Source: Rhodovulum sp. P5
Lineage (GTDB): Bacteria; Pseudomonadota; Alphaproteobacteria; Rhodobacterales; Rhodobacteraceae
DNA: 64,000 bases
Assembly: GCF_002079305.1 (NCBI RefSeq)
Contig: NZ_CP015039.1
Coordinates: forward strand, 1,137,501 to 1,201,500
Direction of reading: 5' to 3'
Shown here: in pieces, positions 29,018-45,176 of the stretch
Layout of the letters: every line of letters starts with the position of its first letter
Numbering within the stretch: position 1 is the first letter of the stretch
Program-made: the position numbers and the translations under genes
Notes under the pieces: model-generated
What the model was told of the DNA's origin: nothing
Seen by the model: the letters and a program-made list of their open reading frames with translations, nothing else
Database searches by the model: none

Positions 29018-29245
29018 TCAGCCGGTGTGACGGATCAGGAACTTGTAGACGTCGCCGTCCTGTTCGCTTGTCACCAGTTCATTGCCGGTGGAATTGCAGA
29101 ACGCCTCAAAATCCTTCACCGAGCCCGGATCGGTGGCGATGATTTCCAGCGTACCGCCGGTCGGCACGTCCTTCAGTGCCTTTTTCGCCTTCAGAATGGG
29201 CATCGGGCAATTCATTCCCTTGGCGTCCAGAACCGCATCAGCCAT
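29018..29245 (-). CDS. tusA: TusA-family sulfur carrier protein
   Basis: A small sulfur-transfer protein that carries persulfide on a single Cys. The 75-residue product has the family motif KGMNCPMPILKAKKAL with active Cys13. The ribosome site GGGAG lies seven bases before ATG 29245. A second Cys at about residue 51 (EAFCNSTGNE) is outside the core motif. It is the last gene of the sHdr operon, directly after the dsrE-family gene. In other sHdr organisms TusA with DsrE proteins hands sulfane sulfur to the sHdr complex, and that is the likely role here rather than tRNA thiolation. Confidence 0.9.
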   Translation of the reverse strand: MADAVLDAKGMNCPMPILKAKKALKDVPTGGTLEIIATDPGSVKDFEAFCNSTGNELVTSEQDGDVYKFLIRHTG

Positions 29246-29259
29246 GTTTTTCTCCCAGA

Positions 29260-29754
29260 TCAGATGTAAAGGTTGATATCGCTCTTCGCGGCGACATCGA
29301 CCCAGGACGCCGCGCCGCCCAGTTCGGGGCCGTCGATCATGTCTTCGCGCTTGTACTCGAACAGATCCATGGTCATCTGGCAGGCGATCATCTTGACATC
29401 CGCGTCGATGGCAAGCTCGCGCAGCTCCTCGATGGAGGCGACGCCCTTCTTCTTGAGCATGTTCTTCATCATGTTTGTGGTCAGCGCGGTCATGCCCGGC
29501 ATCGCCGCCACGATGTTCGGCATCGCCATATGCATGCCGCCCATCGGCATTTCCATCGCCGAATTGCCCAACGGGTTGATCGTCGTCTTCAGGTCCTTCT
29601 TGAGCAGTTGCAGCCCGTAGAAGGTGAAGAACATCGTGGTCTCGATCCCCATCGCGGCGGCGGTGGTGGCAAGGATGAAGGGCGGATAGGCCCAGTCCAG
29701 CGTTCCCTTGGTGACGATGATGGTCATCGCCTTGGCATTGGTATCGTCGAGCAT
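29260..29754 (-). CDS. DsrE/DsrF/DrsH-family protein (DsrE2/DsrE3-like)
   Basis: A 164-residue member of the DsrE superfamily, used in persulfide transfer. The start at ATG 29754 follows a GGGAGGGAG ribosome site; the frame is open nine codons further up but without one. The N-terminus TIIVTKGTLDWAYPPFILAT is typical, as is ETTMFFTFYGLQLLKKD. There is one cysteine, Cys125 in KMIACQMTMDLF, the expected sulfur-binding residue. A striking Met-rich stretch (residues 67-88) holds eight methionines. It lies between lbpA and tusA. A sulfur relay with TusA is well founded by family; whether it is DsrE2 or DsrE3 needs a tree. Confidence 0.86.
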   Translation of the reverse strand: MLDDTNAKAMTIIVTKGTLDWAYPPFILATTAAAMGIETTMFFTFYGLQLLKKDLKTTINPLGNSAMEMPMGGMHMAMPNIVAAMPGMTALTTNMMKNMLKKKGVASIEELRELAIDADVKMIACQMTMDLFEYKREDMIDGPELGGAASWVDVAAKSDINLYI

Positions 29755-29825
29755 CTCTCCCTCCCTGGGCCAAAGCCCCAAAGTTGCCCGCGCGCGGCCG
29801 CACCGGCCCGCGCGGCGTCATCGCA

Positions 29826-30266
29826 TCAGGCGCAGCCCGCGAACTCGTCGGCGGCCATCTTGGCCTCGTAGGGTTCGGCAACCGCGCTGCCGGGTGTCAG
29901 CATTCCCATGGCTGCACCGGCGTCGGAGGGCTTGACCTTGACCATCCAGCCCGCGCCGTACGGGTCGGAATTGGCAAGCTTGGGGTCGGCGGTCAGGCCG
30001 TCGTTCACCTCGACGATCTCGGCCTCGAAGCCCACCTTGGCCGGGCCGACCCATTTGCCGGATTCAACCGTGGCAATGGACTTGCCTTCCTTGATCGTCT
30101 TGCCGACCTTCTTGGCGGTAAAGGCGACAAGCTGGCCGGCCATGCCGGTGGCGATCATCGTCATCCCGCAGGTCAGGGTGCCGTCGCCATTGTCGCGATA
30201 CCAGATATTGTTCGGGACATCGTACAAAAGGTCATCGGGAAGGGTACAACCGCGCACTTCAGGCAT
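29826..30266 (-). CDS. lbpA: Lipoate-binding protein LbpA (GcvH-like) of the sHdr system
   Basis: A GcvH-fold lipoyl protein of 146 residues, longer than normal GcvH. The lipoylation site is Lys71 in TVESGKWVG. The N-terminus MPEVRGCTLPDDLLYDV and WYRDNGDGTLTCGMT fit LbpA proteins rather than glycine cleavage H. No gcvT or gcvP is near; instead the gene sits at the end of the sHdr gene set, and dedicated lipoate-assembly genes lie upstream on the same strand. In the sHdr model LbpA shuttles sulfur-derived intermediates to the enzyme complex through its lipoyl arm. It starts one base after the preceding stop. Cysteines at 7, 33 and 145 are extra features. Confidence 0.92.
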   Translation of the reverse strand: MPEVRGCTLPDDLLYDVPNNIWYRDNGDGTLTCGMTMIATGMAGQLVAFTAKKVGKTIKEGKSIATVESGKWVGPAKVGFEAEIVEVNDGLTADPKLANSDPYGAGWMVKVKPSDAGAAMGMLTPGSAVAEPYEAKMAADEFAGCA

Positions 30267-30267
30267 C

Positions 30268-30738
30268 TTAACTCTCCATCGGTTCTCGCGCCGCGGGGTC
30301 GCCCTGACGGAGCGGACGCGACGAGCAGCAGAAATCGCCCAAACCGTCCACGACCAGCTTGCCGCCAACGAAAAGGGCCAGGTGCCGGACGACCATCGTG
30401 CCCATCCGCAGCCACTGCACGGATTCGGGCGCCGCGGGATCGTCCACAACCAGATTGCGATGATAAACAAGCTCTCGGCAAGTTTCTCGGCACGCGTTGA
30501 AGCTGGGTGTGCCCCGCGCGCCCTGCTTGTGAAGGGCGAGAAGTCGGAATCCCTCGCTCTGCTCTGCGGTGGGCGTGCCGCCCTTTGCCGTCACCCATGC
30601 CGCGACCACGTCTTCGCCCAAGGCAAGCAACTCGTCTGCATGGCGCGCGGGGTCGGCGGCCAGAACGTCGTCGGGCAGCCCGTCGAAGGCGTCGCAGGCG
30701 GCCTCGACCTCGGCGATGGAAAGCGGCGTGCGGGTCAT
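30268..30738 (-). CDS. Unknown Cys-containing protein between sHdrB2 and LbpA
   Basis: I do not recognise this 156-residue protein. Its start overlaps the sHdrB2 stop (ATGA) and its stop lies one base before lbpA, so it is an integral part of the operon. The first 70 residues look helical and acidic. Five cysteines are present: Cys15, a C83-x3-C87 pair in SFNACRETCRELVYH, and adjacent Cys137-Cys138 in GDFCCSSRP. That pattern could bind a metal or carry sulfur. There are no membrane helices or signal peptide. From position it should serve sHdr or LbpA, for example as a chaperone, a redox partner or a sulfur relay, but none of these can be shown. Confidence 0.75.
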   Translation of the reverse strand: MTRTPLSIAEVEAACDAFDGLPDDVLAADPARHADELLALGEDVVAAWVTAKGGTPTAEQSEGFRLLALHKQGARGTPSFNACRETCRELVYHRNLVVDDPAAPESVQWLRMGTMVVRHLALFVGGKLVVDGLGDFCCSSRPLRQGDPAAREPMES

Positions 30739-31670
30739 CCCAGTCCCTTTTCCTTCACGAAGCCGACGGAGTCCGAGAAGTTGTCGTTCACGCCCACCTT
30801 GCGCCAGGAAAGCCCCAACGCCAGCCCCAGAAGCTGGGTGAAGTGCATGATTTTAACGTTCGTTTTCCGCCCGTGGACCTTTTCGCCACGGATCTGGTGC
30901 ATCTCCAGTCCGGTGTGGCAGGTGGGGCATTCCGTGGCGATCACGTCGGCGCCGGCGGCCTCTGCCGCGGTCAGGATATTCAGGCACAGCTTGGTCGAGG
31001 TGTCGCTGTCGGACAGGGTATGCGCCCCCCCGCAGCACGCTGTCTTGAGCGGGAATTCCACGTTTTCCGCACCGGCCGCGGCCAGCAGGTCATCCATGAA
31101 ATGGGGCCGTGCGGTCGACTCCGTTCCCGGGCCCTTGTCCTTCTCGGGGAAGATGCGCCGCGGCCGGGTGTACATGCAGCCGTAGTAGTTGGCGATCTTG
31201 ATCCCCTTCAGCGACTTCTTGACGCGTTCGCGGATCCCGTCTTCGCCGACGGTGCGCATCAGCCAGTCAAGCGCGTGCACGGTCTCGACATTGCCGGCCT
31301 CATAGGTCTTGTGGCCGGCCTTTTGCGACAGCCGGTCGTTCACCGCGACCGAATGCTCGTCGTGGGACAGGTCGTACTCGGCCTTCTTGAGGTTGTGATA
31401 GCACCCGTTGCAGGGCGCCATCACCGTGTCGAAGCCCATCTTCTCGGTCTGCGACAGGACGCGGGCCGACAGATAGGTCTCGATCTCGGGGTCGATGTTC
31501 TTGACCTCCATCGCGCCGCAGCAGTTCCAGTTTTCCACCTCGACCAGCTTCAGCCCCAGTTCCTTGGCCAGAACCTTGACCGACTTGTTATAGGCATAGC
31601 CGGTGCCCTCAAGCGCGCAGCCGGGGTAGTAGGCGACCTCTTTCAGGTCCTTGTCCTTGTCGTCTTTCAT
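30735..31670 (-). CDS. shdrB2: sHdrB2, heterodisulfide reductase subunit B-like
   Basis: A HdrB-type subunit of 311 residues with two CCG domains that in HdrB bind non-cubane iron-sulfur clusters. The first has VAYYPGCALEG, NWNCCGAMEV and PCNGCYHNLKK; the second has NYYGCMYTRP, KTACCGGAHTL and ECPTCHTGLEM. All expected cysteines are present. The start is ATG 31670, one base after the shdrC2 stop; an upstream frame encodes only Arg-rich residues. The gene order C2-B2 after C1-B1-A-Hyp is the signature of the type I sHdr system for oxidising sulfane sulfur to sulfite in the cytoplasm. It overlaps the next gene by four bases. Confidence 0.92.
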   Translation of the reverse strand: MKDDKDKDLKEVAYYPGCALEGTGYAYNKSVKVLAKELGLKLVEVENWNCCGAMEVKNIDPEIETYLSARVLSQTEKMGFDTVMAPCNGCYHNLKKAEYDLSHDEHSVAVNDRLSQKAGHKTYEAGNVETVHALDWLMRTVGEDGIRERVKKSLKGIKIANYYGCMYTRPRRIFPEKDKGPGTESTARPHFMDDLLAAAGAENVEFPLKTACCGGAHTLSDSDTSTKLCLNILTAAEAAGADVIATECPTCHTGLEMHQIRGEKVHGRKTNVKIMHFTQLLGLALGLSWRKVGVNDNFSDSVGFVKEKGLG

Positions 31671-31671
31671 G

Positions 31672-32427
31672 TCAGTGCTTCCCCTCGGCCGGCAGCCCCA
31701 GCGCCTTGCGGTTGTTGGCCTCGACTTCCTCGATATATTCCATGATCCCGGCCTTCGCCGGACCCCAGCCCTTGGTCCTGGGGCGGAAGACGAGCAAGGT
31801 GAACATCTGCAAGAGGTACCCAAGCGGTGCGCGCTTGATGATGCCCTGGATCATGGCCACCAGGTAGGGTTCCTTGAACGGGGCCCAGCGGTTCTTCATC
31901 CGGGTGAAGAAGTCCCGCATGACTAGGCCGTCCTCGATCATGCCGGTGTCGATGACCTGCTGGCTGAAGCCCTCGTCGAAATGGGTCGACGGTTTCTTCT
32001 CGGTGTGGCCCTTGAGTTCCAGCCACTTCGCGGTGGCATGCATCACGGCCTCGGGCACCACGTCGCGCGGGCAGGCATCGGTGCACTTGTTGCAACTGAC
32101 GCACTGCCAGATGATGTCCTTGTCGCGGAGCAGTTCCTCCTCCATCCCCAGCCGGATCAGGTAGATCCAGTAGCGCGGGTTGAAGTCGGGGTTCACCGCA
32201 TTCACCGTGCAGGCATTGGTGCAGGAGCCGCATTGCCAGCAGCGATGGATGTTCTCGCCGCCCGGCAGGGCCGCGATTTCTTCCTGCATCTTCTCGTTGT
32301 AGTCGCTGACCGACCGCCCCTCGATGAACGTGGACCAGTGGCCGGAGACATCCATGCCGTCGATCACCAGCTCTTCATGCTCGCGCAGGTTCTCGGGCCG
32401 GATCAGGGATTTTTCGTGGATGGGCAT
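31672..32427 (-). CDS. shdrC2: sHdrC2, heterodisulfide reductase subunit C-like (two [4Fe-4S])
   Basis: An iron-sulfur electron-transfer subunit of 251 residues. Two [4Fe-4S] motifs are complete: CWQCGSCTNACTVN (about 63-76) and CVSCNKCTDACPRD (about 108-121). The rest is helical, with a hydrophobic patch in the C-terminal half (GYLLQMFTLLVF, about residues 202-213), perhaps an interaction surface. It directly abuts the stop of the Hyp gene and is followed by shdrB2 after one base. Pairs with sHdrB2 by analogy with HdrC-HdrB of methanogens. Confidence 0.92.
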   Translation of the reverse strand: MPIHEKSLIRPENLREHEELVIDGMDVSGHWSTFIEGRSVSDYNEKMQEEIAALPGGENIHRCWQCGSCTNACTVNAVNPDFNPRYWIYLIRLGMEEELLRDKDIIWQCVSCNKCTDACPRDVVPEAVMHATAKWLELKGHTEKKPSTHFDEGFSQQVIDTGMIEDGLVMRDFFTRMKNRWAPFKEPYLVAMIQGIIKRAPLGYLLQMFTLLVFRPRTKGWGPAKAGIMEYIEEVEANNRKALGLPAEGKH

Positions 32428-33297
32428 TTAGTTAGCCTCCTGCGCGTCTGTGACGCCGAGCGCACCCAGCGTGTGGGCCGTTCCGTCGACGAGCTTGAGC
32501 CGCGTGCGGCCGGTTTCAGTGTCCACGGCATCGAGGCCGAGCAGCCGGCGCGTGTGCAGCATAGGGTCGGCCGCCGTGGCGAATTCCGCGCGCATGAACT
32601 CTCCGCCGCGGTCGTTGATATAGGCGGCATAGACATGCGCCAGCAGCAGGTCGGTGAAGAACGGCAGGTCGCGATAGACACCCTCGCCCCGCAGGAAGCC
32701 TTCCAGTTCTCCGGCCAGCGTCGCGAAGGTCAGGTATCCGCCGGGCACCTCGATCTGCGCCTCGGCCACATCATCGGCGAACCAGACTTCCCGAAGCGCG
32801 CCGGTGCCGACACGGCCGTCCCAGACCCAGCGGGTCATCAGCGGATAGCGGTCGGGCGCGATGAAGTGCAGCACCTCGGCCCCCAGATCGGGCAGCCAGC
32901 GATGCGCCTTGTCATGGGGAAACCCGTCGCTGAACGCGGCCAGCCGCCGGTCGGTCGTGCCAAGATCGCACCAACCATCCAGCAGGGATACCAGGCGGTT
33001 GCGCATGTCCTCGAAGCCGATTTCGCCCAGAAGCGCACCGACACGACGACGCGCGGGCGTGACGAAGGCGCAGAGATCGTAGAACTCCGTCTCCGTCAAC
33101 TCGTGGACCTTGCCCTTGCCCAGCATCTCCTCGAACAGCGAGGCCTTCAGCCAGAGCGCGGTGATATACCGGTCCACGCCCCCCGTCGGCTCCGCGCTTT
33201 CGATCAGATGCTCGTAGGCACGGCGCAAACGCGGGCCTGACAGGTCGAGCACCGGCGCCTGCGCGACCTCGGTCTTTCGACTGAGGCCGAACATCAC
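32428..33297 (-). CDS. sHdr-associated conserved protein 'Hyp'
   Basis: A 289-residue soluble protein without a known catalytic motif. Its place between shdrA and shdrC2 is the fixed position of the gene called hyp in sHdr operons. It has a mostly helical N-terminal half (LRRAYEHLIESAEPTGG, FEEMLGKGKVHELTETEF), then a beta-containing part, and only one clear cysteine (GWCDLG). It starts within the shdrA stop (ATGA overlap) and ends at the base before the shdrC2 start, so it is strictly coupled. Function unknown; it may be structural or serve maturation of the complex. Confidence 0.85.
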   Translation of the reverse strand: MMFGLSRKTEVAQAPVLDLSGPRLRRAYEHLIESAEPTGGVDRYITALWLKASLFEEMLGKGKVHELTETEFYDLCAFVTPARRRVGALLGEIGFEDMRNRLVSLLDGWCDLGTTDRRLAAFSDGFPHDKAHRWLPDLGAEVLHFIAPDRYPLMTRWVWDGRVGTGALREVWFADDVAEAQIEVPGGYLTFATLAGELEGFLRGEGVYRDLPFFTDLLLAHVYAAYINDRGGEFMRAEFATAADPMLHTRRLLGLDAVDTETGRTRLKLVDGTAHTLGALGVTDAQEAN

Positions 33298-34346
33298 TCC
33301 GCCGCGTCCTTGACGCCGTTCATGGCAAAGCCCATCGCGGCCATCGCCGCGGCATGACCTTGCGCGATGGAGTCGTCGATGGTTTCCGGGCCCGATGCGG
33401 CGCCGGCCACGAACACGCCGGGGCGCGAGGTTTCGGCCAGCGTGGCATAGGCGTTCTGGCGACCCAGATAGCCCCAGCGGTTCAGATCCACGCCGAAGAT
33501 GGCCGACAGCGTCATGTTGTCGACGTTGGGGTCCATGCCGATGGCGTGCACCACCATGTCGAACGGGATCGAGATCGGGCGCTTGACCAGCGTGTCCTCA
33601 CCCTTCACCAGCAGGCGTTTGCCGTCCGACGTCACCTCGGCGATCCGCGCCTTGACGTACTTGACCTTGTATTCTTCCTGGCTGCCCCAGTAGAACTCGC
33701 CCTCGTAAAGGCCGAAGGTCCGGATATCCATGTAGTAGATATAGACGTTGGTGTCCGGCGACATCTCGCGGATTTCCATCGCCATGTTCGCCGACACGGT
33801 GCAGCAGATCTTGGAACACCACTCGCGCCCGATCTGCCGGTCACGGGAGCCGACGCACAGAAGGATCGCGACCCGGTCCGGCACGCGCCCGTCAGAGGGG
33901 CACTTGATCCCCTTCCCCGAGGAAATCATCTGCTCCACCTGGGTGGTTGTGACCACGTCCGGGTAGGTGCCGAAACCCCATTCGGGCTTGTTCACGCTGT
34001 CGAAATGGGTGAACCCGGTGGCAAGGATGGCCGAGCCGGCCTCGACCTTCGAGCCATCCGAAAGGGTCGCGACGAAGTTGCCGGGGCCGCCGTTGAATTC
34101 CTTCACCGTGGTGCCGGTGCGCACGTCGATATGGGGGTTTTCCTCGACACGGCTGACCATGCCACCGATGGCATCCTTGGCCCATTCATGGCTGGGCACC
34201 AGCTTGGCATAGCCGCACAGGATCGGCGCCCCGCCAAGGATGTCTTCCTTCTCGATCAGGATGCTTTTCTGGTTCACGGCGGCAAGCGCCTGGGCAGCGG
34301 ACAGACCGGCGGGACCGCCGCCGACGATAAGAACGGGCTGGCTCAC
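33294..34346 (-). CDS. shdrA: sHdrA, FAD-containing heterodisulfide reductase subunit A-like
   Basis: The flavin subunit of the sHdr complex, 350 residues and much shorter than methanogen HdrA because ferredoxin domains are missing. The FAD site is VLIVGGGPAGLSAAQAL at the N-terminus, and a second flavin motif is FVAGAASGPETIDDSIAQG near the end. Cysteines are arranged as in sHdrA: CGYAK, LLCVGSRD and EWCSKICCTVS, the last likely holding an iron-sulfur cluster. It overlaps both neighbours by four bases. It probably forms the core with B1, C1, B2 and C2 and passes electrons to an acceptor that is not identified here. Confidence 0.93.
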   Translation of the reverse strand: MSQPVLIVGGGPAGLSAAQALAAVNQKSILIEKEDILGGAPILCGYAKLVPSHEWAKDAIGGMVSRVEENPHIDVRTGTTVKEFNGGPGNFVATLSDGSKVEAGSAILATGFTHFDSVNKPEWGFGTYPDVVTTTQVEQMISSGKGIKCPSDGRVPDRVAILLCVGSRDRQIGREWCSKICCTVSANMAMEIREMSPDTNVYIYYMDIRTFGLYEGEFYWGSQEEYKVKYVKARIAEVTSDGKRLLVKGEDTLVKRPISIPFDMVVHAIGMDPNVDNMTLSAIFGVDLNRWGYLGRQNAYATLAETSRPGVFVAGAASGPETIDDSIAQGHAAAMAAMGFAMNGVKDAAE

Positions 34347-35713
34347 TTCTCAGCTCCTGCAAGTGCTTTGGGTTTCTCATAGCCGGGGCCCGACGTGATG
34401 GCCCGCTTCGGGTCGTAAAGGGTCTCGATCCGGCCCTGCTTGACCTCTTCAAGATAGGCTTCAAACTCGGCCTTCGCCTTTTCCCAGTCGATGCCCATCT
34501 TCTCCAGCAGCACCTCGAACGGCGAGGCATGCCAGTGAAGCTGCGCCAGCTTGTAGGGATGCGCACCCATGCTCAGCGCCGCGAACTGGCAGTCGGCCAT
34601 CACCGGCAGGGCATAGACCTTGTCCACCGCCTTGCCGATCCACTGGTTCTTGTCCAGCGTGGTGATGCAGCCGGTGTCATGGCCGATCATCACGTCCGAC
34701 TTGGCCTCTTCCACCGCGACCTTGATCTTGCGGTCGATCGCGAAGGAACGGGTGAATTCACGCTCGCCAATGATATGGCGGAAGCCGAAGCCGCAGCAGT
34801 CGTACCAGGTCGAATAGTCAATCACCTGCGTGCCCAGCGCCTGCATCAGGCCGGTGGTCACGGCCACCCGGTTCCCCTCCATGACGGTGTCGTCATAGAT
34901 CACGTCCTCGGGCACCATCTTGTAGACATGGCAGGCCGGGTGGACGGTGGAGCGGATGTTGCTGACGTCGATCGTCTGACGTTCTGCGATCCGGTGGCGC
35001 ATCACGTGCAGCCATTCGGAATAATGCACGACCTCTTCGGGGATCAGCAGCTTGCCATCGACAAGGCGCCCGAGCTTGCCGAGGATCTTCTTCACCTCGG
35101 CGCGCAACTCCGGCGACTCCATCAGGAAGATCCGCATCTCCTTGTAGTTGCCGAAGGAAGTGCCGCAATGGATCAACGGATAGAAATGACCCGGCGGCAG
35201 CCCCTGCGACTTGGCCGACATATAGGCCTGATGGAAGTTCCTCAGGAACACCGAGGCCAGCGAGACCACGTTACCGATGCCAGAGCCGTGATAGTTCCAC
35301 GCCGTGCACGAGGTCTGGTCGGTCTCGTCGATATAGGTCTGGCCCATCTGGTTCATGATCCACAGAACCGAGGACGGATAGCCGGGGATGTTGCCGCACT
35401 GGCCGCAGGACTTGTGGTGCCACAGGTTGTTGGTCGGGATCTTCTTGTCCCAGCCATACAGCGTCTTGGCCATCACCGGTTCGTGCTGGTCGGAGATGCG
35501 GTGGACGACGATTTCGCCCTCGCGCTCCAGTTCCCACATGCGGTCGCGGATGTCTTCCTTCCGCTCCTTGCTGGTCAGCAGGGCGCGCTTGTCGATCTTC
35601 TGTTCGACCCAGTCGGTGGCGCGGCGGGCCTCGTCAGCCGTCAGGTTGCTCGGCTTCCAGTCGGCCCCGAAGCCGCTATAGGCTCCGCCCTGGGTGTCCT
35701 TGTCGTTGGTCAT
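34343..35713 (-). CDS. shdrB1: sHdrB1, heterodisulfide reductase subunit B-like
   Basis: A 456-residue HdrB-like subunit, longer than B2 because of an N-terminal extension of about 110 residues that carries CGQCGN. Cysteine landmarks are HKSCGQCGNIPGYPSS, DQTSCTAWNYHG, HPACHVYKMVPED, WYDCCGFGFRH, GHDTGCITTLDKNQ and ADCQFAALSMG. The CCG motif thus survives once, in the C-terminal part. ATG 35713 is set by a GGGAGG ribosome site eight bases upstream. Its stop overlaps the shdrA start. In sHdr models B1 is thought to be the catalytic B subunit that handles the sulfur substrate; that is from published family work, not visible here. Confidence 0.92.
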   Translation of the reverse strand: MTNDKDTQGGAYSGFGADWKPSNLTADEARRATDWVEQKIDKRALLTSKERKEDIRDRMWELEREGEIVVHRISDQHEPVMAKTLYGWDKKIPTNNLWHHKSCGQCGNIPGYPSSVLWIMNQMGQTYIDETDQTSCTAWNYHGSGIGNVVSLASVFLRNFHQAYMSAKSQGLPPGHFYPLIHCGTSFGNYKEMRIFLMESPELRAEVKKILGKLGRLVDGKLLIPEEVVHYSEWLHVMRHRIAERQTIDVSNIRSTVHPACHVYKMVPEDVIYDDTVMEGNRVAVTTGLMQALGTQVIDYSTWYDCCGFGFRHIIGEREFTRSFAIDRKIKVAVEEAKSDVMIGHDTGCITTLDKNQWIGKAVDKVYALPVMADCQFAALSMGAHPYKLAQLHWHASPFEVLLEKMGIDWEKAKAEFEAYLEEVKQGRIETLYDPKRAITSGPGYEKPKALAGAEK

Positions 35714-35753: not shown

Positions 35754-36506
35754 TCAATCGTCGTCGTCTTCGTCTTCCTGCTCTTCGAGCCACTCTTCCC
35801 ACTCTTCGCGCTTCTCATCCATCACGTCCGAGACGACATCGAAGAGGTTCTCGTCGACGGCTTCCAACTGATCCAGAACGCCGGTCTCTTCCCAGATCGT
35901 GTAAAGCTCGACCGAGGCGCGCAGGTTGACCTCCCACGCGGTGTCCAGCGTATGCATGGTGGGCATCGGGATCGCCTTGCGCAGGATCATCAGCGGCGCG
36001 TCGATCTTGGCCACGTCCGGCCCCCAGTCGGGGAACGCTTCCTTGGTGATCATATTCGGCGCAAGCTGGTTGCCCGTCGACACGACCTTCAGCAGCACCC
36101 GGCTGAACGGGCGCAGCACCTCTTTCGCCGACTCCATCTGATGCTTGATCGCGACCTCGCGCATGATCATGACCAGACCGCCGGGCGAGTTTTCGAAAGG
36201 GCAACGCGCGGCACAGGTGTAGCACTGGGCACAGGCCCAGATCTTTTCCTGCATCGCGTCGTAGATACCTTCGAGGTTCTCGGTCCACAGAAGCTGCACG
36301 ATCTCGCGCGGCGAGTAGTCGTAGTAGTGGGCCGAGGGGCAGGTCGCCGTGCAGATGCCGCAATTCAGGCATCCGTGGATCTCGTGATTGTAAAGCTGGT
36401 GGCCGCGGATATCGTCGAAGATCTCTTCGAGAGTCTCGTAGGCAATCACAGGTTTCTCGGATACCGGATCGGAAATCGGTGCCGGTATCTGGCGTATTGC
36501 ACCCAT
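35754..36506 (-). CDS. shdrC1: sHdrC1, heterodisulfide reductase subunit C-like (two [4Fe-4S])
   Basis: An iron-sulfur subunit of 250 residues with CLNCGICTATCPSA and CAQCYTCAARCPFE, both complete [4Fe-4S] motifs. Hydrophobic residues are scattered and there is no membrane helix. The last 25 residues are almost all acidic (Glu and Asp), an unusual tail that could be a docking surface. ATG 36506 follows GGGAGG with five bases between; the GTG two codons earlier lies inside that site. First Hdr subunit of the operon, 40 bases after the dsrE-like gene. Confidence 0.92.
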   Translation of the reverse strand: MGAIRQIPAPISDPVSEKPVIAYETLEEIFDDIRGHQLYNHEIHGCLNCGICTATCPSAHYYDYSPREIVQLLWTENLEGIYDAMQEKIWACAQCYTCAARCPFENSPGGLVMIMREVAIKHQMESAKEVLRPFSRVLLKVVSTGNQLAPNMITKEAFPDWGPDVAKIDAPLMILRKAIPMPTMHTLDTAWEVNLRASVELYTIWEETGVLDQLEAVDENLFDVVSDVMDEKREEWEEWLEEQEDEDDDD

Positions 36507-38043: not shown

Positions 38044-38049
38044 CCGGCA

Positions 38050-39336
38050 TCACCACTTGTAGGTCATGCCGACAGAGAATTCGTTCTGGTCCATCCGCAA
38101 CTTGACCGGTTGACCCGCCGCGATCATGTTCGTGCCCGTCACGCTGCTCTCGAAGGCATGGGTATAGGCCGCGGTGATGCCCCAGTTCTCGTTCACCTTG
38201 TAGCTTGCCCCAAGCGAGGCATGCCAGCGCGGAGTCGCCGGGGCCAGCACGTTCAGCAGCGCTTCCCCGTTGTCGATGAACTGCGTCGCATAGCTGACAC
38301 CGCCGCGGAAGGTCCATTTCTCGTTGGCCTTCCAGATCCCGGCAACACGGATCACGTCCATGTCCTTCCAGCCGAAGCCCGGCCCGCTGTCGGTGCCCAG
38401 CAGCGCCGAACCGGTGTTCGGCAGCGTGACGTTCGAATTGGAGATCGAGTTGATGTCGCTGTAGAAGATCCGCTGATACTCCGCCGTCAGCGTCACGTCC
38501 GGGTTGGAGGGCAAAGTGTAGGCCGCCCCAAGCGTCGCTACCGCCGGGATATCGAAATCCCCCTGCTCGGCGAAGAGGCCGGAATACTTGTTGAACTTCT
38601 CCATGTAGATGCGCGAGCGGTAGGAAAAGCCGAACCGCCACTGTTCATTCGGCTCCCACACCATGCCGAGATTCAACCCCAGCCCCGAGGACCAGTCGTC
38701 ACCGTTGTTGGTCACGCTGCCCACGTCCGACGTGAAGAACGCGTTGTCGAACGCCTGCAACCCGGTGGCCGAAAAGCGCTGGATCGCGAGGATCGGCGCG
38801 ACACCGACGGTCAGTTGTTCGTTGACGTCGTAGGCATAGTTCACGGCGATGAACAGCTGTTCGAGATTCACGCCAAGCGGTGAGGTCGAGTTCACAGGGT
38901 CGAAGTTCTGGAAGACGTTCGTATTGTATTCGGTATTCATCCCGCCATTGCCGAAGGCGATGATCCCAAGGCTCGACCTTTCGCTCAGGCTGAAATTGAC
39001 GCCGCCGCAGGGGATGAAGAACACGTCGTTCTTGCTTTTCTGCGTGCCGGACACCAGCGGCCCGGCAGCGCTGTCGACCGAAAATCCCCGATCCGGTGCG
39101 AAGGTCGTCAGACAGAAACCGGCCGTGTTGCCGACCCGCGTTCCAAAGGCCGGGTTCTGCGCCAGACCCAAAAGGCCCGCAGACACCGCGACGCCGGCCC
39201 CGGCCATCCCCTTGGACGGGCCGCCATAGCCGTTCGCGATATAGCCGTTGGTGGCCAGTGCCGGCGCGGCAAACATCCCAAGTGCCAGCGCCATTGCCGA
39301 CGTCCGCAAAAGCGGCGGCATTCCCTTGTCACTCAT
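38050..39336 (-). CDS. OmpP1/FadL-family outer membrane porin
   Basis: A 428-residue outer-membrane beta-barrel of the FadL type, which lets hydrophobic compounds cross the outer membrane. A GGAGG ribosome site stands seven bases before ATG 39336. The signal peptide ends in AAPALA, and the mature protein begins TNGYIANGYGGPSKGMAGAGVA, the typical FadL N-terminal hatch. The barrel strands end with a C-terminal aromatic residue (MTYKW), the outer-membrane insertion signal. It lies inside the sulfur cluster with its own terminator and no fatty-acid genes near, so it may import a hydrophobic sulfur compound such as elemental sulfur, organic disulfides or a thiol. That is inference. Confidence 0.9.
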   Translation of the reverse strand: MSDKGMPPLLRTSAMALALGMFAAPALATNGYIANGYGGPSKGMAGAGVAVSAGLLGLAQNPAFGTRVGNTAGFCLTTFAPDRGFSVDSAAGPLVSGTQKSKNDVFFIPCGGVNFSLSERSSLGIIAFGNGGMNTEYNTNVFQNFDPVNSTSPLGVNLEQLFIAVNYAYDVNEQLTVGVAPILAIQRFSATGLQAFDNAFFTSDVGSVTNNGDDWSSGLGLNLGMVWEPNEQWRFGFSYRSRIYMEKFNKYSGLFAEQGDFDIPAVATLGAAYTLPSNPDVTLTAEYQRIFYSDINSISNSNVTLPNTGSALLGTDSGPGFGWKDMDVIRVAGIWKANEKWTFRGGVSYATQFIDNGEALLNVLAPATPRWHASLGASYKVNENWGITAAYTHAFESSVTGTNMIAAGQPVKLRMDQNEFSVGMTYKW

Positions 39337-39586: not shown

Positions 39587-40663
39587 TCAGGCCCGGCCCG
39601 CGGCGGCGGCCTGCAAGGCTTGTGTGAAATCCGCAGGCGCGGCCGACATCAGCGAGGCCCCGGCCGCATCGAAGAACCCCTGAACCGCCCCCTCGACCTC
39701 GTCGAAGGGAACACCACGCAGCGCCGCCTCAAGGTCCGGGACGATCCGCGGCGGCGCGACGAAGAAATCGCCGGTAAACAGCACCTCGCGGATACGGTCC
39801 TGCCGCGCGCCTTCCAGCCGCAGATGCGCCGTGATGGTGCCGCCCTTGCCCATATGGCTGGCCGACAGGACATCGGCCGCCTTGCCCGGATCGTCGATCC
39901 CGTAGACGAACTCGTCCTGCCCGATTTCACTGTCGAAGATCTCCTGCGCGAGGCGTTCTTCGCCGTCCGTGATCTCACCCCATTCGGGCGCGATGCCCAG
40001 CCGGTGCGCAAAGGCCGCCAGAAGGGCCTCTTTCACCTCGGCCGCCGGGGGCGGTGCGCCGTCGAAAAGCTCCGTCAGGGTCACGATGCGCTTCGCGGCG
40101 TCGCTCGCCCCGTGTTTGGCCAGCTTCGCGGCGGGGATGTTCAAAAGGCCCGCCATCTTCGCCCCGTCCATCGCGACAAGGATCGTACCCTGGTAAAAGA
40201 TCGTGTCGCCGTCGAAGAACCCGCCGGTGCCAGAAATCTTCCGCCCATCGACCTCGATATCATTGCGCGGGCGATACCGCGCCGCGATTCCCAGCGACGA
40301 CAAGCCCTCCGCCGCAGCCTCACATATTTCACGCGCCAGATCGCCAAGGGACGTGATCCCCAGCGTGGCCTTGTGAAACACCAGCTCCCAACCGAATTGC
40401 CCTTCATCCAGATAGAGCGCCCCACCGCCGGTGACGCGCCGCCCGATGCCCACGCCCGCCGCCCGGCAGGCGGGCAGGTTCAGTTCCTGGCTGATCGCCT
40501 GATGGCGCCCGGCCAGAACCGAGGGCGGGAACGTCAGAAAGCGTACCGTGTCAGGCGTGGTGCCCGCCTTGTGCCCCTCGATCAGCGCCTGGTCGCAGGC
40601 GATCTGTTCGCGGCAGTCACGCACGCCCGTATCGATCACGCGGAAGGGTTTGGCCTCAGTCAA
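39587..40663 (-). CDS. Lipoate-protein ligase of the sHdr type (sLpl(AB)-like)
   Basis: Attaches lipoate or octanoate to a lysine via an adenylate. The 358-residue protein has a catalytic domain with GRRVTGGGALYLDEGQ and NDIEVDGRKISGTGGFFDG, whose Lys is the family's ligand-binding residue, plus a C-terminal accessory domain of about 110 residues (GGTITAHLRLEGARQDRIREV), so both LplA and LplB parts are in one chain. The start is most likely TTG 40663: a GGAGG precedes it by nine bases, and it overlaps the preceding LipS stop by eight bases; no ATG lies near. Last gene of the lip operon. The natural target is probably LbpA (Lys71). Confidence 0.87.
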   Translation of the reverse strand: MTEAKPFRVIDTGVRDCREQIACDQALIEGHKAGTTPDTVRFLTFPPSVLAGRHQAISQELNLPACRAAGVGIGRRVTGGGALYLDEGQFGWELVFHKATLGITSLGDLAREICEAAAEGLSSLGIAARYRPRNDIEVDGRKISGTGGFFDGDTIFYQGTILVAMDGAKMAGLLNIPAAKLAKHGASDAAKRIVTLTELFDGAPPPAAEVKEALLAAFAHRLGIAPEWGEITDGEERLAQEIFDSEIGQDEFVYGIDDPGKAADVLSASHMGKGGTITAHLRLEGARQDRIREVLFTGDFFVAPPRIVPDLEAALRGVPFDEVEGAVQGFFDAAGASLMSAAPADFTQALQAAAAGRA

Positions 40664-41933
40664 GGTCCAATTCCTCCCCCGGCACATAGGTCTCTCCGGG
40701 GCGTTCCATATCCAGTTGGTGGCGCACCCGCCGCAGATCGGCCGGGCGCAATTCGAACGGATAGGACGCGATGTCCGATGGCGGGCTGTCGCCATAGGGC
40801 CGGTCGCAGGCCGAGATGTCCTCGGCAAACTTGCCGGGGCAGCCCGAGGTGCGGAAGGCAATCCCCGCATCGACGATTGCGGCGAGTTCCGAGGCCGGAA
40901 GCCCGAAATCGGTAATCCGCCCATCGTCGCCGAATGTCATGTGCTCGACCCGCACCCCGCAATAGTCCACCAGATAACGGGCCAGTTGCACCCGCCGCCA
41001 CTGATCCCGGGGCGTGGCGGGCAGGTGGTCCATCAGGCTGCCCTTTTCGGGATAGAAGCAGAACATGTGGGAATGCCCGCCCAGATCGACGAGGCGCTGG
41101 ATCACCTCCATCATCTCGCGCTCTGTCTCGCCCATGCCGACGATCAGATGCGCGCCGAATTTCTGTGGCCCGAAGATGTCGCGCGCCATGTGGATCGCGT
41201 CCCAATAGGTGTCCCAGCTATGGGGCGACTGAACGCCCTTGCCACGGGTGCGATCGAACACCGCGGGGCTGGCCGCATCCAGGGCCACGGTAAAGATGTC
41301 AGAGCCCATGTCCTTCAACCGCACGATATCCTCGCGCGTCATTGTCGTCGGGTTGGACAGGATCGAGATCGGGATCGCGTCGGGGTCGATCCGGTCGGTC
41401 CATGTCTTCAGCACAGTCACCGTGTCTTCATCCGAGTTCGGGTGCGTGATCATCGAGATGCACATGCGGTGGAACGGGCTGTTGTCGACATCCGCAGCAA
41501 TGCGGTCCACGACCTCCGCCATCGGGGCGGCGGGCCAGTCCACGCGGATGAAGTTGCGGTCGGCATAGTTCCGCTCTGCCTCCCGGTGCCGTGCCAGCCC
41601 GCAATAGGCGCAATTGGCGCGGCAGCCCTCGGGGTAGGTCAAGAGCAGGTTGAGGCAGCGCGTGCAGGAACAGTTGTACATCTGCCCCTCCACCAGACCC
41701 AGGGTGATCGCCGCCGCGGTCGACATCTGCACGTACTCTGGCGACCGCATATGGGGCGTCATGACCCGGTAATCGGGGCGATAAAGCCCCTCGGGCGCGA
41801 TGCCTGCATCCTTCACGGCGCGGCCGTTCTTCATCGTGGGGGGCACCTGCCCCGGCGCGCGGGGTTGCATCCGTTCGGCGGTGTTGATGCCGGTTCCGGG
41901 GGCGGGCTGCTGGTTCTGGTTCAGGCAACTCAT
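40656..41933 (-). CDS. Radical SAM lipoyl synthase-type protein (LipS2-like)
   Basis: A radical SAM enzyme of 425 residues. The SAM cluster motif is C104-x3-C108-x2-C111 in CRANCAYCG. A second cysteine set (Cys88, Cys90, Cys93 in YNCSCTRCLN) lies just before it and could bind the auxiliary cluster that gives up sulfur. Later blocks include ALDAASPAVFDRTRGKGVQ and AHLIVGMGETEREMMEVIQ, typical of the biotin/lipoyl synthase group. ATG 41933 overlaps the LipT stop (ATGA). With the second radical SAM protein upstream it matches the LipS1/LipS2 pair that inserts one sulfur each into octanoyl-LbpA. Which of the two it is rests on gene order alone. Confidence 0.85.
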   Translation of the reverse strand: MSCLNQNQQPAPGTGINTAERMQPRAPGQVPPTMKNGRAVKDAGIAPEGLYRPDYRVMTPHMRSPEYVQMSTAAAITLGLVEGQMYNCSCTRCLNLLLTYPEGCRANCAYCGLARHREAERNYADRNFIRVDWPAAPMAEVVDRIAADVDNSPFHRMCISMITHPNSDEDTVTVLKTWTDRIDPDAIPISILSNPTTMTREDIVRLKDMGSDIFTVALDAASPAVFDRTRGKGVQSPHSWDTYWDAIHMARDIFGPQKFGAHLIVGMGETEREMMEVIQRLVDLGGHSHMFCFYPEKGSLMDHLPATPRDQWRRVQLARYLVDYCGVRVEHMTFGDDGRITDFGLPASELAAIVDAGIAFRTSGCPGKFAEDISACDRPYGDSPPSDIASYPFELRPADLRRVRHQLDMERPGETYVPGEELDLD

Positions 41934-43027
41934 GCGGGTTCCTTCGCCTCCGTGGCTGGGGTTTGTGTCTTGTCCTGTCGGTATTCCGGAAAGGCGATCC
42001 ACGCCCGGCGCAGATCGGCCTCGGTCGGCTGGCCGCCGTTGTCATAGGTGGCCATCAGCGCCTGCCGCTGTCGAACGGCCAGCCCAAGCGATGGGCCGTA
42101 TAGATCGTGCAGGTCCTCGGCATAGTCATCGGCGGCATCGGACCGGCCCGCGGCCATGTCCGCGGCCGCCTCGCCGGCCAACCGCCCGGACAGGACGGCG
42201 GCCGCAATCCCTGCGCCGGTGATCGGATGGGTCAAACCCGCCGCATCGCCCGCCAGCAGAACCTCCACCGGCCCGATCCGGCCCACCGGCCCGACCATAC
42301 CGCCCACGGGGATCTTGCCCCCGGTCAGGCGGGTTGCCGTCTCCCCAACCCGCCCCTGCCGGACAAGCCGGGCATGAAGGTCTTCCAAAAGCGGCTTCAA
42401 CCGGTCCCGCGCATGGGGCACCACGCCAAGGCCCAGATTGGCCTCCTCCCCCCGCGGGAAAAGCCAGCCATAGCCCCCCTCGATATCGGCGCTGAGGAAG
42501 ATATCCGTCGCGTCATGGGGCGCCAGCAGCGGCACCGTGATCTGCCGCGCCTCGGCCAGAGCCCGATTGGGCAATCCGGCCAACCGCCCAACGGTGGAGC
42601 GCGGACCATCCGCCCCGATGACCACACGTGGCCGCATCGTCCGGTCGGCGACAACGACCGTTCCGTCAGGGTCGATCCCGTGCAGCGCCACCCCGGTCAT
42701 TACCTCAGCCCCGGCGGCAAGCGCGTCCTCCACCAACGCCGCGTCGAACCGCGCGCGGTCGATCATCACGCCACGGAAATCCGGCGTCCGAACTGGGGCG
42801 CCGGTGCCCAGACAGGTTTCCATCGCCGCGATCTCCTGCACGGCGGAGCGGGCGACGGCCGATGTTTCGCCGGCCAGCGCGGCGGGCACGAACTCGGCGC
42901 ATTGGACGGGACAGCCCGGTTCGGCACGGCGGTCCACCGCCAGAACCCGCGCGCCCGCCCGGGCCGCCGCCGCCGCGGCAGAGGCCCCGGCGGGCCCCAG
43001 CCCCACGATCAGAACATCGACGCTCAC
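41930..43027 (-). CDS. FAD-dependent oxidoreductase LipT-like (geranylgeranyl-reductase family)
   Basis: A 365-residue flavoprotein of the geranylgeranyl reductase/PHBH fold. It starts VDVLIVGLGPAGASAAAAA (FAD-binding) and has GADGPRSTVGRLAG and the second FAD motif LLAGDAAGLTHPITGAGI. CPVQCAEFVP at about residues 40-49 is a characteristic Cys-containing loop. The start is GTG 43027, sharing GTGA with the stop of the upstream radical SAM gene; a longer frame adds low-complexity residues. Between two lipoyl-synthase-like genes and before a lipoate ligase it fits LipT, a flavin oxidoreductase found with sHdr lipoate assembly. Its reaction is not known to me. Confidence 0.83.
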   Translation of the reverse strand: MSVDVLIVGLGPAGASAAAAAARAGARVLAVDRRAEPGCPVQCAEFVPAALAGETSAVARSAVQEIAAMETCLGTGAPVRTPDFRGVMIDRARFDAALVEDALAAGAEVMTGVALHGIDPDGTVVVADRTMRPRVVIGADGPRSTVGRLAGLPNRALAEARQITVPLLAPHDATDIFLSADIEGGYGWLFPRGEEANLGLGVVPHARDRLKPLLEDLHARLVRQGRVGETATRLTGGKIPVGGMVGPVGRIGPVEVLLAGDAAGLTHPITGAGIAAAVLSGRLAGEAAADMAAGRSDAADDYAEDLHDLYGPSLGLAVRQRQALMATYDNGGQPTEADLRRAWIAFPEYRQDKTQTPATEAKEPA

Positions 43028-44055
43028 GCCGCGCACCCCGCCTTGGCCCGCGCCTCCCCCAGCTTGATGGAACAGCAGGCATGGGCCTGTTCCCATTGCC
43101 GTCCGGTCAGCGCCGCCACGCCCACCGCGCCCTCCGCCGGGAAGGCGATCCCGTCCAGCCCCGCCATCACCGCATAGGCATCGGTGATCCGCTTGTGCAT
43201 GCCCGCGGGCCGCGCACAGCCCAGCAGAACGTCACGGTCGGCCAGCACCGCGCGGGAGTCCATGAAGATGCGGCCCACCTGATGGGCATCGGGCGTCACG
43301 AAGGTCCCCGGTTCCGCATAGAAAGGCATGACCACCACCAGCACCAGCGCCTTGGTCGGATAGCGCGCGACCATGTCCAGCGCCCGCGCCTCTCCAACAA
43401 TGCGCCCATAATGCAGACCGATGACGATATGGGGCGAGATCTCCATATCCGTCGCGGACAGCGCGGCCAGCGTGGCCTCGAAATCCTCGACGGGCCGGTC
43501 GAGGTGATAGACCTCACGGATCGTGTCGTCCGATCCGATCACGTCCATCATGGCGGTGTCGACGCCCGCCGATGACATCCGCTGTGCCCCGGCCTCATCC
43601 GTCAGGGCGGTGTGGATCGCGACGCGCAGATCGGGGAAGTCACGCTTCAGCCCCTCGATCACCGGATAGAAGCGGTCATAGTTAATCTCGTTGCGCCGGT
43701 TCGACCCGCCCGACAACAGGAACCCCTGCAAGCCCTGAAGGGCGATCAGATCGCGCACCTTCTGGTCCAGCACCTCGGGCTTTGTGGCGGGGATCATCGG
43801 CTCCAGGATCTTGGCCTTGCAGTGGTCGCAATCGAGCGCGCAGGCCCCCCCGGTGATCGAGAAGGCCGGGAAGGAATTGCGCCCGCATCCCTTGATGTCG
43901 GGCGTGTCGTATTCCTTGAAGGTGGGCGTGGCAAACCGGATCGGGCGGGCCTCCACGCGGGGCGCGTGGCGCTCCATTTCAGCCACCAATTCCGCGTCGA
44001 AGTCGGCATCTTCCAGCGCCTCGATGCGTTCTATGCGGCTCAGCCAGTCGCCCAT
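43024..44055 (-). CDS. Radical SAM lipoyl synthase-type protein (LipS1-like)
   Basis: A 343-residue radical SAM protein with C72-x3-C76-x2-C79 in CALDCDHCK. Further cysteines lie at Cys57 (KGCGRNSFP) and near the C-terminus (HACCSIKLGEARAKAGC), candidates for an auxiliary cluster. GFLLSGGSNRRNEINYDRF and SPHIVIGLHYGRIVGE are core barrel blocks. It overlaps the HDAC-like gene by 16 bases upstream and LipT by four downstream. In the two-enzyme LipS1/LipS2 route each radical SAM protein inserts one sulfur atom. Assignment as LipS1 follows the order lipS1-lipT-lipS2-ligase, which I recall from published sHdr clusters and should be confirmed. Confidence 0.83.
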   Translation of the reverse strand: MGDWLSRIERIEALEDADFDAELVAEMERHAPRVEARPIRFATPTFKEYDTPDIKGCGRNSFPAFSITGGACALDCDHCKAKILEPMIPATKPEVLDQKVRDLIALQGLQGFLLSGGSNRRNEINYDRFYPVIEGLKRDFPDLRVAIHTALTDEAGAQRMSSAGVDTAMMDVIGSDDTIREVYHLDRPVEDFEATLAALSATDMEISPHIVIGLHYGRIVGEARALDMVARYPTKALVLVVVMPFYAEPGTFVTPDAHQVGRIFMDSRAVLADRDVLLGCARPAGMHKRITDAYAVMAGLDGIAFPAEGAVGVAALTGRQWEQAHACCSIKLGEARAKAGCAA

Positions 44056-45176
44056 GTCTTGTCCTCCTCCAGCGGGTCGGCAGCGCGGACCGCCGCAATC
44101 AACTCTTCCACCTCGGGCCGCACCGGCCCGTCATTGCGGCCGTCTGCAATCGTGGTGAACCATTCCGGCGCGCGATCCTCTTCCTCGACCAGTTCGCAGT
44201 CGAGCGCGGCAAGCACCGCCTCGGCCTCGGTCGGCAACCGCTCGGGGATCGCCTGTCCCGACAGCCGCGCCCAAAGCCCCGCCCAGGATCGCCCCAGCGT
44301 CCACGGATTATACCCGCCACCGCCCAGCACCACGGCCGCGGGCGCCAGCGCGACAAGACGCTCTACCGCATCCCACATGCCGGTATTCGACAGCGCAAGC
44401 GAGGACAGCGGATCGCCCTTCAGCGCGTCCGCCCCAACCGTGATGACCACCGCATCCGGCGCAAAGCCCCGCGCCAGCGGAAACACCGCCCCGGCCATCA
44501 CCCGCGCGAACTCTGCATCGTTCAGGCGCGGCGGCACGGGCAGGTTGCAGGCCTGCCCCACCCGATCCTCCAGCGTCCCGGTAAAAGGCCAGCGCCCGGC
44601 CTCGTGCACCGAAATCGTCATCACGCGCGGGTCGTCGGCAAAGGCGGCCTCCACCCCGTCGCCGTGATGGGCATCCAGGTCGACATACAGAACCCGCCGC
44701 CGGCCCAGATCGAGCAGTTCCAGAATCGCGAAGACCGGATCGTTGAAGAAGCAGAAGCCGCTGGCCCGGTCGCGCCGCCCGTGATGGGTGCCGCCGCCGG
44801 GATGAAACGCAACCGCGCCCGCATGGGCCAGATCGGCGGCCAGCAGCGCGCCGCCGACCGACACCGCGGCCCGGTGATAGAGCCCGCGGAAGATCGGGTT
44901 CTCCATCGTGCCGATATGGTGGCGTTCGCGATCCTCGGGGCTGGCCCGCCCCGCGGCCTCTGCACGGCGGATCGCCTCGATATAGGCCGGGTCGTGAAAG
45001 CGTTCGAGATCGGCGCGGCTGGCAGGCAAGGCTTCGACGACGTGACGGTCCGGGCCGATCCAGCCGAGCGCGGAGCACAGCCGCTCGACCGTTCCCACAC
45101 GCGCAATCGCCAGCGGATGATTGCCGCTATAGCCGGTCTCGCGAAAGATCCCGGCGGTGATGAAATGCGCCGTCAT
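44040..45176 (-). CDS. Histone-deacetylase-family zinc amidohydrolase (AcuC-like)
   Basis: A 378-residue arginase/deacetylase-fold enzyme that cleaves acyl-lysine amides or similar amides. All key sites are intact: HPGGGTHHGRRDRASGFCFF (His131-His132 charge relay), YVDLDAHHGDGVE with zinc ligands Asp168 and His170, VGADALKGDPL with the third ligand, and catalytic Tyr in GGGGYNPW. The start at ATG 45176 gives the normal N-terminus; a GGAGG lies 13 bases upstream, rather far. It heads the lip operon and overlaps the LipS1-like gene by 16 bases, so a role in acyl- or lipoyl-lysine turnover on LbpA is attractive. AcuC-type protein deacetylation is the conservative reading. Confidence 0.88.
   Translation of the reverse strand: MTAHFITAGIFRETGYSGNHPLAIARVGTVERLCSALGWIGPDRHVVEALPASRADLERFHDPAYIEAIRRAEAAGRASPEDRERHHIGTMENPIFRGLYHRAAVSVGGALLAADLAHAGAVAFHPGGGTHHGRRDRASGFCFFNDPVFAILELLDLGRRRVLYVDLDAHHGDGVEAAFADDPRVMTISVHEAGRWPFTGTLEDRVGQACNLPVPPRLNDAEFARVMAGAVFPLARGFAPDAVVITVGADALKGDPLSSLALSNTGMWDAVERLVALAPAAVVLGGGGYNPWTLGRSWAGLWARLSGQAIPERLPTEAEAVLAALDCELVEEEDRAPEWFTTIADGRNDGPVRPEVEELIAAVRAADPLEEDKTWATG

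Follow-up and report, generated by a model that had tools for sequence, protein, structure and literature searches.

An HDAC-fold deacylase gene at the head of the lipoate-assembly operon of a group I sHdr block in Rhodovulum sp. P5, with a possible role in editing LbpA

Described sHdr-lipoate systems and the Rhodovulum block

Group I clusters of the heterodisulfide reductase-like sulfur-oxidation system (sHdr) have been described (PMC6067878), gene positions and locus tags of the sHdr cluster have been given (PMC10451225), and sHdr has been reported in sediment Alpha- and Gammaproteobacteria (PMC12345210). In the LipS1/LipS2-sLpl(AB) pathway described by Tanabe et al. (2023), free octanoate or lipoate is attached by the ligase sLpl(AB) and sulfur is inserted by LipS1/S2; lipS1, lipT, lipS2, slpl(AB), lipX and lipY are all described there (PMC10332631), and sHdrH and sHdrI are named in a legend of PMC11582611. 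Here, a block is analysed that occupies positions 29018-45176 of a window of Rhodovulum sp. P5 DNA (the whole stretch analysed, 64,000 nucleotides, G000:C1:1137501-1201500; genome 4.47 Mb, 5 contigs). By its sequence it belongs to the group I sHdr-LbpA systems, carries a LipS1/S2-sLpl(AB) operon and is a further member of the published kind. Its first gene encodes a protein of the histone deacetylase (HDAC) fold, which is tentatively proposed to act on octanoyl- or lipoyl-lysine of LbpA.

Codon-based gene calling and translation gave 18 minus-strand genes without internal stops, so that the coordinates and single strand of a preliminary description of this DNA stand. The order, 5' to 3', is HDAC-like gene, lipS1, lipT, lipS2, slpl(AB), lipY, lipX, dsrE3, shdrC1-B1-A-H-C2-B2-I, lbpA, dsrE2 and tusA. 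From the HDAC-like gene to slpl(AB) the genes are packed, with overlaps of 16 (deacylase gene and lipS1), 13 and 4 nt and then a 16-nt gap, followed by gaps of 250 nt (slpl(AB)-lipY), 279 nt (lipY-lipX) and 153 nt (lipX-dsrE3); shdrB1 through lbpA are likewise tightly packed. The sHdrC1, B1, A, hypothetical (sHdrH), C2 and B2 proteins, LbpA, TusA and two DsrE proteins listed earlier are all encoded, and four genes inside those coordinates had been left unnamed, those for sHdrI, LipX, LipY and the HDAC-like protein.

The published cluster of Hyphomicrobium denitrificans (group I) shares with this block lipS1-lipT-lipS2-slpl(AB), lipX, dsrE3C, the shdr genes including those for sHdrH and sHdrI, lbpA2 and tusA, as well as the lysine and cysteines of LbpA; unlike in that description, lipY lies here between slpl(AB) and lipX. 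Compared with the pathway of Tanabe et al., all four named enzymes, LipX and LipY are shared, and the deacylase is added. The word "deacetylase" has no occurrence in the main texts of PMC10332631, PMC10451225, PMC11582611, PMC12423496 and PMC6067878, a scope outside which figures and supplements fall, so that the gene may stand unnamed in a figure. Among the matches listed in literature searches, no published link of an HDAC/AcuC-type deacylase to lipoate assembly, LipS1 or sHdr was found, and no step editing or reversing LbpA lipoylation was met in the available portions of the sHdr and lipoate-assembly literature. A deacylase as the first gene of a lip operon appears new to the literature.

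Linkage and phyletic distribution of the deacylase

sHdr loci were taken as the best 80 of 230 stretches encoding an sHdrA relative in the genome collection, and 49 sHdr genomes were picked from the 80 for long loci or the presence of lipS1. Among the 40 LipS1-positive genomes of these 49, an HDAC gene lies directly upstream of lipS1 on the same strand in 29, and the aligned ends lie no more than 164 nt apart; two of these cases are fragments truncated where a contig stops. Over 90 loci, 44 have lipS1 and 37 have at least 1200 nt upstream of it, and a same-strand HDAC gene within 300 nt was found in 19 of the 37. Four more loci (L077, L088, L089, L091) carry it about 1.1-1.2 kb upstream of lipS1, and two (L067, L078) elsewhere in the cluster. 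Samples drawn blind to HDAC (385 class and 398 phylum genomes) contained 10 and 8 LipS1-positive genomes, 16 of them distinct; the two genes are directly adjacent in 8, separated by one open reading frame (ORF) in 3, and 5 are without the linked gene. By record title, the adjacency spans Alpha- and Gammaproteobacteria. Apparent HDAC-LipS1 fusions were rejected: the frames of 714-716 aa in G185, G279 and G357 trace to a YeeE/SoxT-like ORF (recognised by eye) that stands on its own upstream and is read in a different frame, and in the 741-aa stretch of L076 the two genes lie in different frames.

The linked proteins also form a clade of their own. In a 129-row tree rooted on a far paralogue, every lip-cluster HDAC entered fell in one 48-row clade with support of 100 in the Shimodaira-Hasegawa-like approximate likelihood ratio test (SH-aLRT). 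With HDLP of Aquifex aeolicus included (69 rows), the lip-linked clade of 44 rows occupied one side of a branch, again at SH-aLRT 100, and after the addition of L076, earlier set aside because of its length (70 rows), the clade had 45 rows, L076 inside, at SH-aLRT 90. The first HDAC tree of 68 rows, without HDLP, needed three changes of the lip label, and the generic rows as one clade were not rejected by the approximately unbiased test (p 0.53). HDLP, a long branch, was considered as a clade member and discarded, since it falls outside in three trees. Also outside are 11 second copies of sHdr genomes, the copies away from lipS1 in the LipS1-positive L134 and L141, and L213 (L137 refetched), and no AcuC protein from the LipS1-negative genomes of the class sample falls within the clade.

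Presence of the clade follows LipS1. In the class sample, where the trees include each of the 71 HDAC places found at E<=1e-50, 6 of 10 LipS1-positive genomes have a clade member against none of 375 LipS1-negative ones. For the sHdr genomes, where remoter HDAC matches of no more than 141 bits were left off the trees, the counts are 35 of 40 against 1 of 9; the one LipS1-negative genome counted, G403, is represented by a fragment of 777 bases at the edge of a contig. Fisher tests on these two comparisons gave 5e-11 and 2e-5, uncorrected for shared descent. The HDAC family as such is not LipS1-specific, a possibility ruled out by the 60 of 375 LipS1-negative class genomes that have a relative at E<=1e-50 (42-55% identical); only the clade is.

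One genome separates lipoate assembly from the sHdr complex. G773, rated 100% complete, carries the HDAC gene, lipS1, lipT, lipS2, slpl(AB), lbpA, dsrE3, tusA, dsrE2 and a FadL-like gene together (L165 3060-13893; several named from translations), and neither sHdrA at E<=1e-40 nor sHdrB1 at E<=1e-10 was found in it. Since the deacylase persists beside lip genes and lbpA in G773 although sHdrA and sHdrB1 were not found there, it goes with lipoate assembly and not with the sHdr complex. A general sHdr partner was accordingly rejected as a description of the enzyme, as eight of the nine LipS1-negative sHdr genomes also lack the clade.

Three further loci or neighbourhoods were recorded in passing. 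In G773, a NiFe-hydrogenase-like operon, recognised by eye, follows the lip genes. In L033, recorded under the name Exiguobacterium profundum, the sHdr cluster is of rhodobacterial type and the HDAC is 71% identical, and for these reasons the taxon label is probably wrong. An AcuC relative without lip neighbours lies at L168 7001-8131 on a Roseobacter litoralis plasmid, a few kb from pufM and pufC.

Proposed function of the deacylase and alternative readings

An AlphaFold2 (AF2) model of the deacylase has a mean predicted local distance difference test score (pLDDT) of 94.2, and its best PDB match, and closest solved structure, is HDLP (1c3r; template modelling score 0.92, 33% identity), which lies outside the lip-linked clade. 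The catalytic and zinc residues are present (His131/His132, Asp166/168/173, His170, Asp250, Tyr289). Across 44 members of the clade, of which 41 are encoded in a lip or sHdr cluster and 3 at other places of LipS1-positive genomes, no variation is seen at the zinc ligands, the second histidine, Phe141 or Tyr289; the one exception is Q at His131. Named database relatives are mostly called AcuC. With AcuC of Bacillus subtilis (classical deacylase cluster 2), itself neither aligned nor placed on the trees, the protein shares the fold, the catalytic residues and the GGGxHH and GGGY motifs; it differs in its clade, separate from the AcuC relatives of LipS1-negative genomes, in its lip-gene neighbours and in the clade's own signatures, such as His125, Gly254 and an acidic tail [CS]-[DE]-L-[VI] at 327-334. 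Enzymes that remove longer acyl chains have GGGxHH instead of RPPxHH and a small X in XGGY (PMC11532494), and GGGTHH at 127-132 and GGGY at 286-289 fit both.

In the proposed mechanism, whose roles for TusA, DsrE, sHdr, sLpl(AB) and LipS1/S2 are carried over from published relatives, sulfur would be brought in by TusA and the DsrE proteins, and the sHdr subunits would oxidise the delivered sulfane sulfur in the cytoplasm with lipoylated LbpA. Lys71 of LbpA would first be octanoylated by sLpl(AB) and then receive two sulfurs from LipS1/LipS2, with LipT as the likely electron donor to that step. The deacylase would hydrolyse an N-acyl-lysine on LbpA, most likely the octanoyl amide or an incompletely thiolated or damaged lipoyl amide, and the free acid and apo-LbpA would return to sLpl(AB), a user of free octanoate or lipoate. 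We infer both the substrate of the enzyme and the direction of its effect. That the block is a group I sHdr-LbpA system for sulfane-sulfur oxidation whose deacylase is a zinc-dependent octanoyl/lipoyl-lysine hydrolase proofreading or recycling LbpA is favoured at just short of an even chance. More tentatively, the whole HDAC-fold clade, mostly named AcuC, may be a dedicated zinc eraser or proofreader of the LipS1/LipS2 route that cleaves octanoyl- or lipoyl-lysine from LbpA, feeds the acid to sLpl(AB) and so controls cytoplasmic sulfur oxidation. Removal of lipoyl groups in bacteria has been reported for a sirtuin lipoamidase (PMC5596343). The enzyme proposed here would be of the zinc-type HDAC fold instead. 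We take that sirtuin to be the NAD-dependent CobB.

Support from the substrate side comes from a pre-screen in which B. subtilis AcuC cleaved octanoyl-lysine with greater efficiency than any other peptide (PMC11532494). Several points weigh against the proposal. The peptide activities of that AcuC were of low efficiency, octanoyl-peptide kinetics were not measurable, and its physiological substrate is acetyl-AcsA (PMC11532494). The GGGxHH-type loop is common to the generic AcuC clade, and position 127 is Ala or Ser rather than Gly in 37 of the 44 clade members, so that the motif permits octanoyl and does not single it out. Five LipS1-positive sHdr genomes (G401, G410, G412, G420, G423) and 4 of the 10 in the class sample have no clade member; since they do without it, the enzyme is dispensable. 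The choice of the 49 sHdr genomes favoured long loci and those with lipS1, the Fisher values overstate independence because genomes share ancestry and some loci are duplicated (L060 and L087, for instance), and G773 is one genome only.

A deacetylase acting on the ligase is a serious rival, though an unlikely one. On this account the protein would be an ordinary lysine deacetylase used as an activity switch: sLpl(AB), a LipS protein or the acceptor lysine of LbpA would be deacetylated, as AcsA is by AcuC. AcuC is established as the AcsA deacetylase (PMC11532494), sLpl(AB)-type ligases also form acyl-AMP (PMC10332631), and the overlap of the deacylase gene with lipS1 would suit such a switch as well. 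Against it, the clade tracks LipS1 and not ligases generally, given that eight of nine sHdr genomes with another ligase and no LipS1 lack the clade, and inspection by eye showed no acetyltransferase among the cluster genes and no acsA, acuA or acuB in the gene list of the window, not every gene of which was scanned against family libraries.

It is improbable that the protein cleaves a small amide, such as an N-acyl precursor, to supply free octanoate and leaves proteins untouched. Some HDAC-fold enzymes do hydrolyse small amides, the tunnel of one of them, RwDmhA, was found to contain an octanoic acid (PMC11532494), and sLpl(AB) requires the free acid (PMC10332631); yet the closest proteins by sequence name and structure are AcuC and HDLP, of which AcuC acts on proteins, and no gene for small-amide biosynthesis was noticed in the cluster. 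That the block is just the published sHdr-lip cluster, and the HDAC gene a passenger beside it that plays no part in the system, is very unlikely. In favour of this reading are published counterparts for almost all the other genes and the described Hyphomicrobium order, in which shdrR, not a deacylase gene, stands before lipS1 (PMC10451225); this difference in order also counts against the proposed LbpA hydrolase. The direct adjacency across two classes, the overlap, the single clade and its absence from all 375 LipS1-negative genomes argue otherwise.

If octanoyl/lipoyl-lysine hydrolysis on LbpA is the true activity, it would give an HDAC-fold enzyme a physiological role in cofactor maturation, a function to a protein set now named AcuC and a control point to a widespread sulfur-oxidation pathway. 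A deacylase heading the assembly operon is a testable candidate for editing or reversing LbpA lipoylation.

Genes of the block and other sulfur routes of the genome

The 18 genes of the block are as follows.

44040..45176, minus strand: HDAC/AcuC-fold deacylase, first gene of the lip operon, 378 aa, proposed octanoyl/lipoyl-lysine hydrolase (PF00850, 239 bits)
43024..44055, minus strand: lipS1, radical SAM lipoyl synthase component (NF053742, 186 bits, cut-off 230; C72xxxC76xxC79)
41930..43036, minus strand: lipT, FAD oxidoreductase of the geranylgeranyl-reductase superfamily (TIGR02032, 183.6 bits, above cut-off; named LipT by position)
40656..41933, minus strand: lipS2, radical SAM lipoyl synthase component (NF053743, 186 bits, cut-off 270; CRANCAYC motif)
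39587..40639, minus strand: slpl(AB), lipoate:protein ligase (PF21948, 145.9 bits; PF10437 C-terminal domain sub-threshold)
38050..39336, minus strand: lipY, FadL/OmpP1-type outer-membrane transporter (PF03349, 94.7 bits)
37081..37770, minus strand: lipX, in print a putative glutamine amidotransferase (no Pfam match at E<=0.001, no NCBIfam match at E<=1e-15)
36547..36927, minus strand: dsrE3-type sulfurtransferase (PF13686 and PF02635 above cut-off; "E3" by position)
35754..36449, minus strand: shdrC1 (HdrC models; 8 conserved Cys)
34343..35713, minus strand: shdrB1 (HdrB model, 110 bits; 8 of 9 Cys invariant, n=76)
33294..34346, minus strand: shdrA (583 bits to PDB 6tjr)
32428..33297, minus strand: shdrH, the hypothetical gene between A and C2 (no family match; 78 aligned rows)
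31672..32427, minus strand: shdrC2 (QmoC/HdrC-type match; 8 Cys in 76/76)
30735..31670, minus strand: shdrB2 (HdrB-type match, two CCG motifs)
30268..30738, minus strand: shdrI, helical protein with four conserved Cys (alignment and AF2 model)
29826..30266, minus strand: lbpA, lipoate-binding protein, Lys71 (GcvH models below cut-off; apart from GcvH on a tree)
29260..29754, minus strand: dsrE2 (NF047629, 232.5 bits, above the equivalog cut-off of NCBIfam)
29018..29245, minus strand: tusA (PRK00299, 64.2 bits, cut-off of 78 not reached; Cys13 in 57/57)

The sHdrA protein scores far higher against PDB 6tjr, which we take to be the Hyphomicrobium sHdrA structure, than against HdrA chains (at most 196 bits), and is thus not methanogen-HdrA-like as judged by score rather than by a tree. 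The signature cysteines of the Hdr subunits, claimed earlier to be intact, are so: the two CxxCxxCxxxC motifs in each of C1 and C2 are retained by every one of the 74-76 sequences aligned, and CCG motifs occur twice in B2 and once in B1. In sHdrI, C83, C137 and C138 are conserved in 47/47 and C87 in 46/47 aligned sequences (CxxxC and CC), and these four cysteines suggest a metal or sulfur site. Its AF2 model is all-helical (pLDDT 86.6) and gave no PDB match at E<=0.001; the best, a HEPN domain at E 0.56, was set aside as a clue to the fold and nothing was concluded from it.

LbpA proteins are defined by the lipoyl lysine together with N- and C-terminal cysteines absent from GcvH (PMC6067878). 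In the LbpA of the block, Lys71 (68/68), Cys7 (68/68) and Cys145 (67/67) are all conserved, in line with the intact lipoyl lysine reported before. It does not group with glycine-cleavage GcvH: a tree of 26 LbpA sequences (24 of the 68 aligned rows and two more) split them from five annotated GcvH, taken from plasmid records rather than from the Rhodovulum genome itself, at 100/99 support, with a long-branch warning for three rows and one long-branch join. Beside the dsrE genes of the block, L019 was seen to have lipX flanked by two DsrE3-type genes.

Of the lipoate-assembly proteins, the two radical SAM proteins had been called lipoyl-synthase-like, and their best NCBIfam matches are indeed LipS1 and LipS2, the only NCBIfam models matched at E<=1e-15, but both fall below the curated cut-offs. 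For the ligase, described as two-domain, the LplA/B catalytic domain is strong and the C-terminal domain is not. LipS1, LipS2 and sLpl(AB) are encoded together here, and a canonical LipA is also encoded elsewhere in the genome. The nucleophile motif of glutamine amidotransferases is presumably GxCxG, and the corresponding LipX position was matched by eye. Among 66 aligned sequences, the window protein included, this position has Gly in 53, Glu in 13 and Cys in none, and no cysteine is conserved anywhere in the alignment. Without the expected nucleophile or any conserved cysteine, LipX should not work as a glutaminase, and the published functional guess (PMC10332631), from which the Rhodovulum protein and its 65 relatives differ in this respect, is called into question.

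Ligase types vary among the 80 sHdr loci, with sLpl(AB) in 34, a divergent ligase in 25 and both in 2; in these two the second ligase is a long form, that of L067 carrying DUF116. All nine LipS1-negative sHdr genomes have the divergent ligase. This ligase (27-34% identical) stands just 5' of lipX in many sHdr clusters without sLpl(AB), such as L005 and L010-L015, among others. Fusions of the lipoate-ligase catalytic domain to DUF116 were seen at L067 342-1997, L165 3060-4682 and L167 14445-16091.

The preliminary description had found a full sHdr set in a rhodobacterial genome remarkable, all the more with Sox as the better-known route, and neither part of this holds. At least 21 of the 80 loci carry Rhodobacter-type taxon titles, the order C1-B1-A-H-C2-B2-I-LbpA recurs in loci long enough to show it, and the suggested comparison with Hyphomicrobium, once run, gave an order largely published already. 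The sox genes were sought and found: soxX, Y, Z, A, B and C exceed NCBIfam cut-offs at about 3.41 Mb, followed by a cytochrome at the SoxD position. With this set including soxC, Sox has not been replaced by sHdr in this genome, whereas the Sox system of H. denitrificans is described as truncated (PMC10451225). SoxC matches of at least 540 bits occur in 13 of the 50 sHdr genomes searched, this one included, and matches of 339-349 bits in four more. The reverse Dsr route (rDsr) was ruled out as an alternative, as the genome has no dsrA match above cut-off (best 44 bits against 392.85). Two further SoxZ-domain matches lie within open frames of about 385 aa at G000:C1:835590-835823 and 844298-844549 (L085).

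Adjoining the block, window positions 16919-28663 encode a 2334-aa type I polyketide/fatty-acid synthase (KS-AT-DH-ER-KR-ACP), a class I/II aminotransferase-type gene, a capsule synthesis gene and an SDR-like gene recognised by eye, a region presumably comparable to rkp-1 of Sinorhizobium. The nearest sHdrA among the 80 loci, 93% identical, belongs to Rhodovulum robiginosum (L004), which carries an sHdr cluster, as does Rhodobacter sp. SW2 (L046). Deacylases 72-76% identical to that of the block are listed for R. iodosum and R. ferrooxidans (P0005, P0012), and we take all four of these organisms to be iron-oxidising phototrophs.

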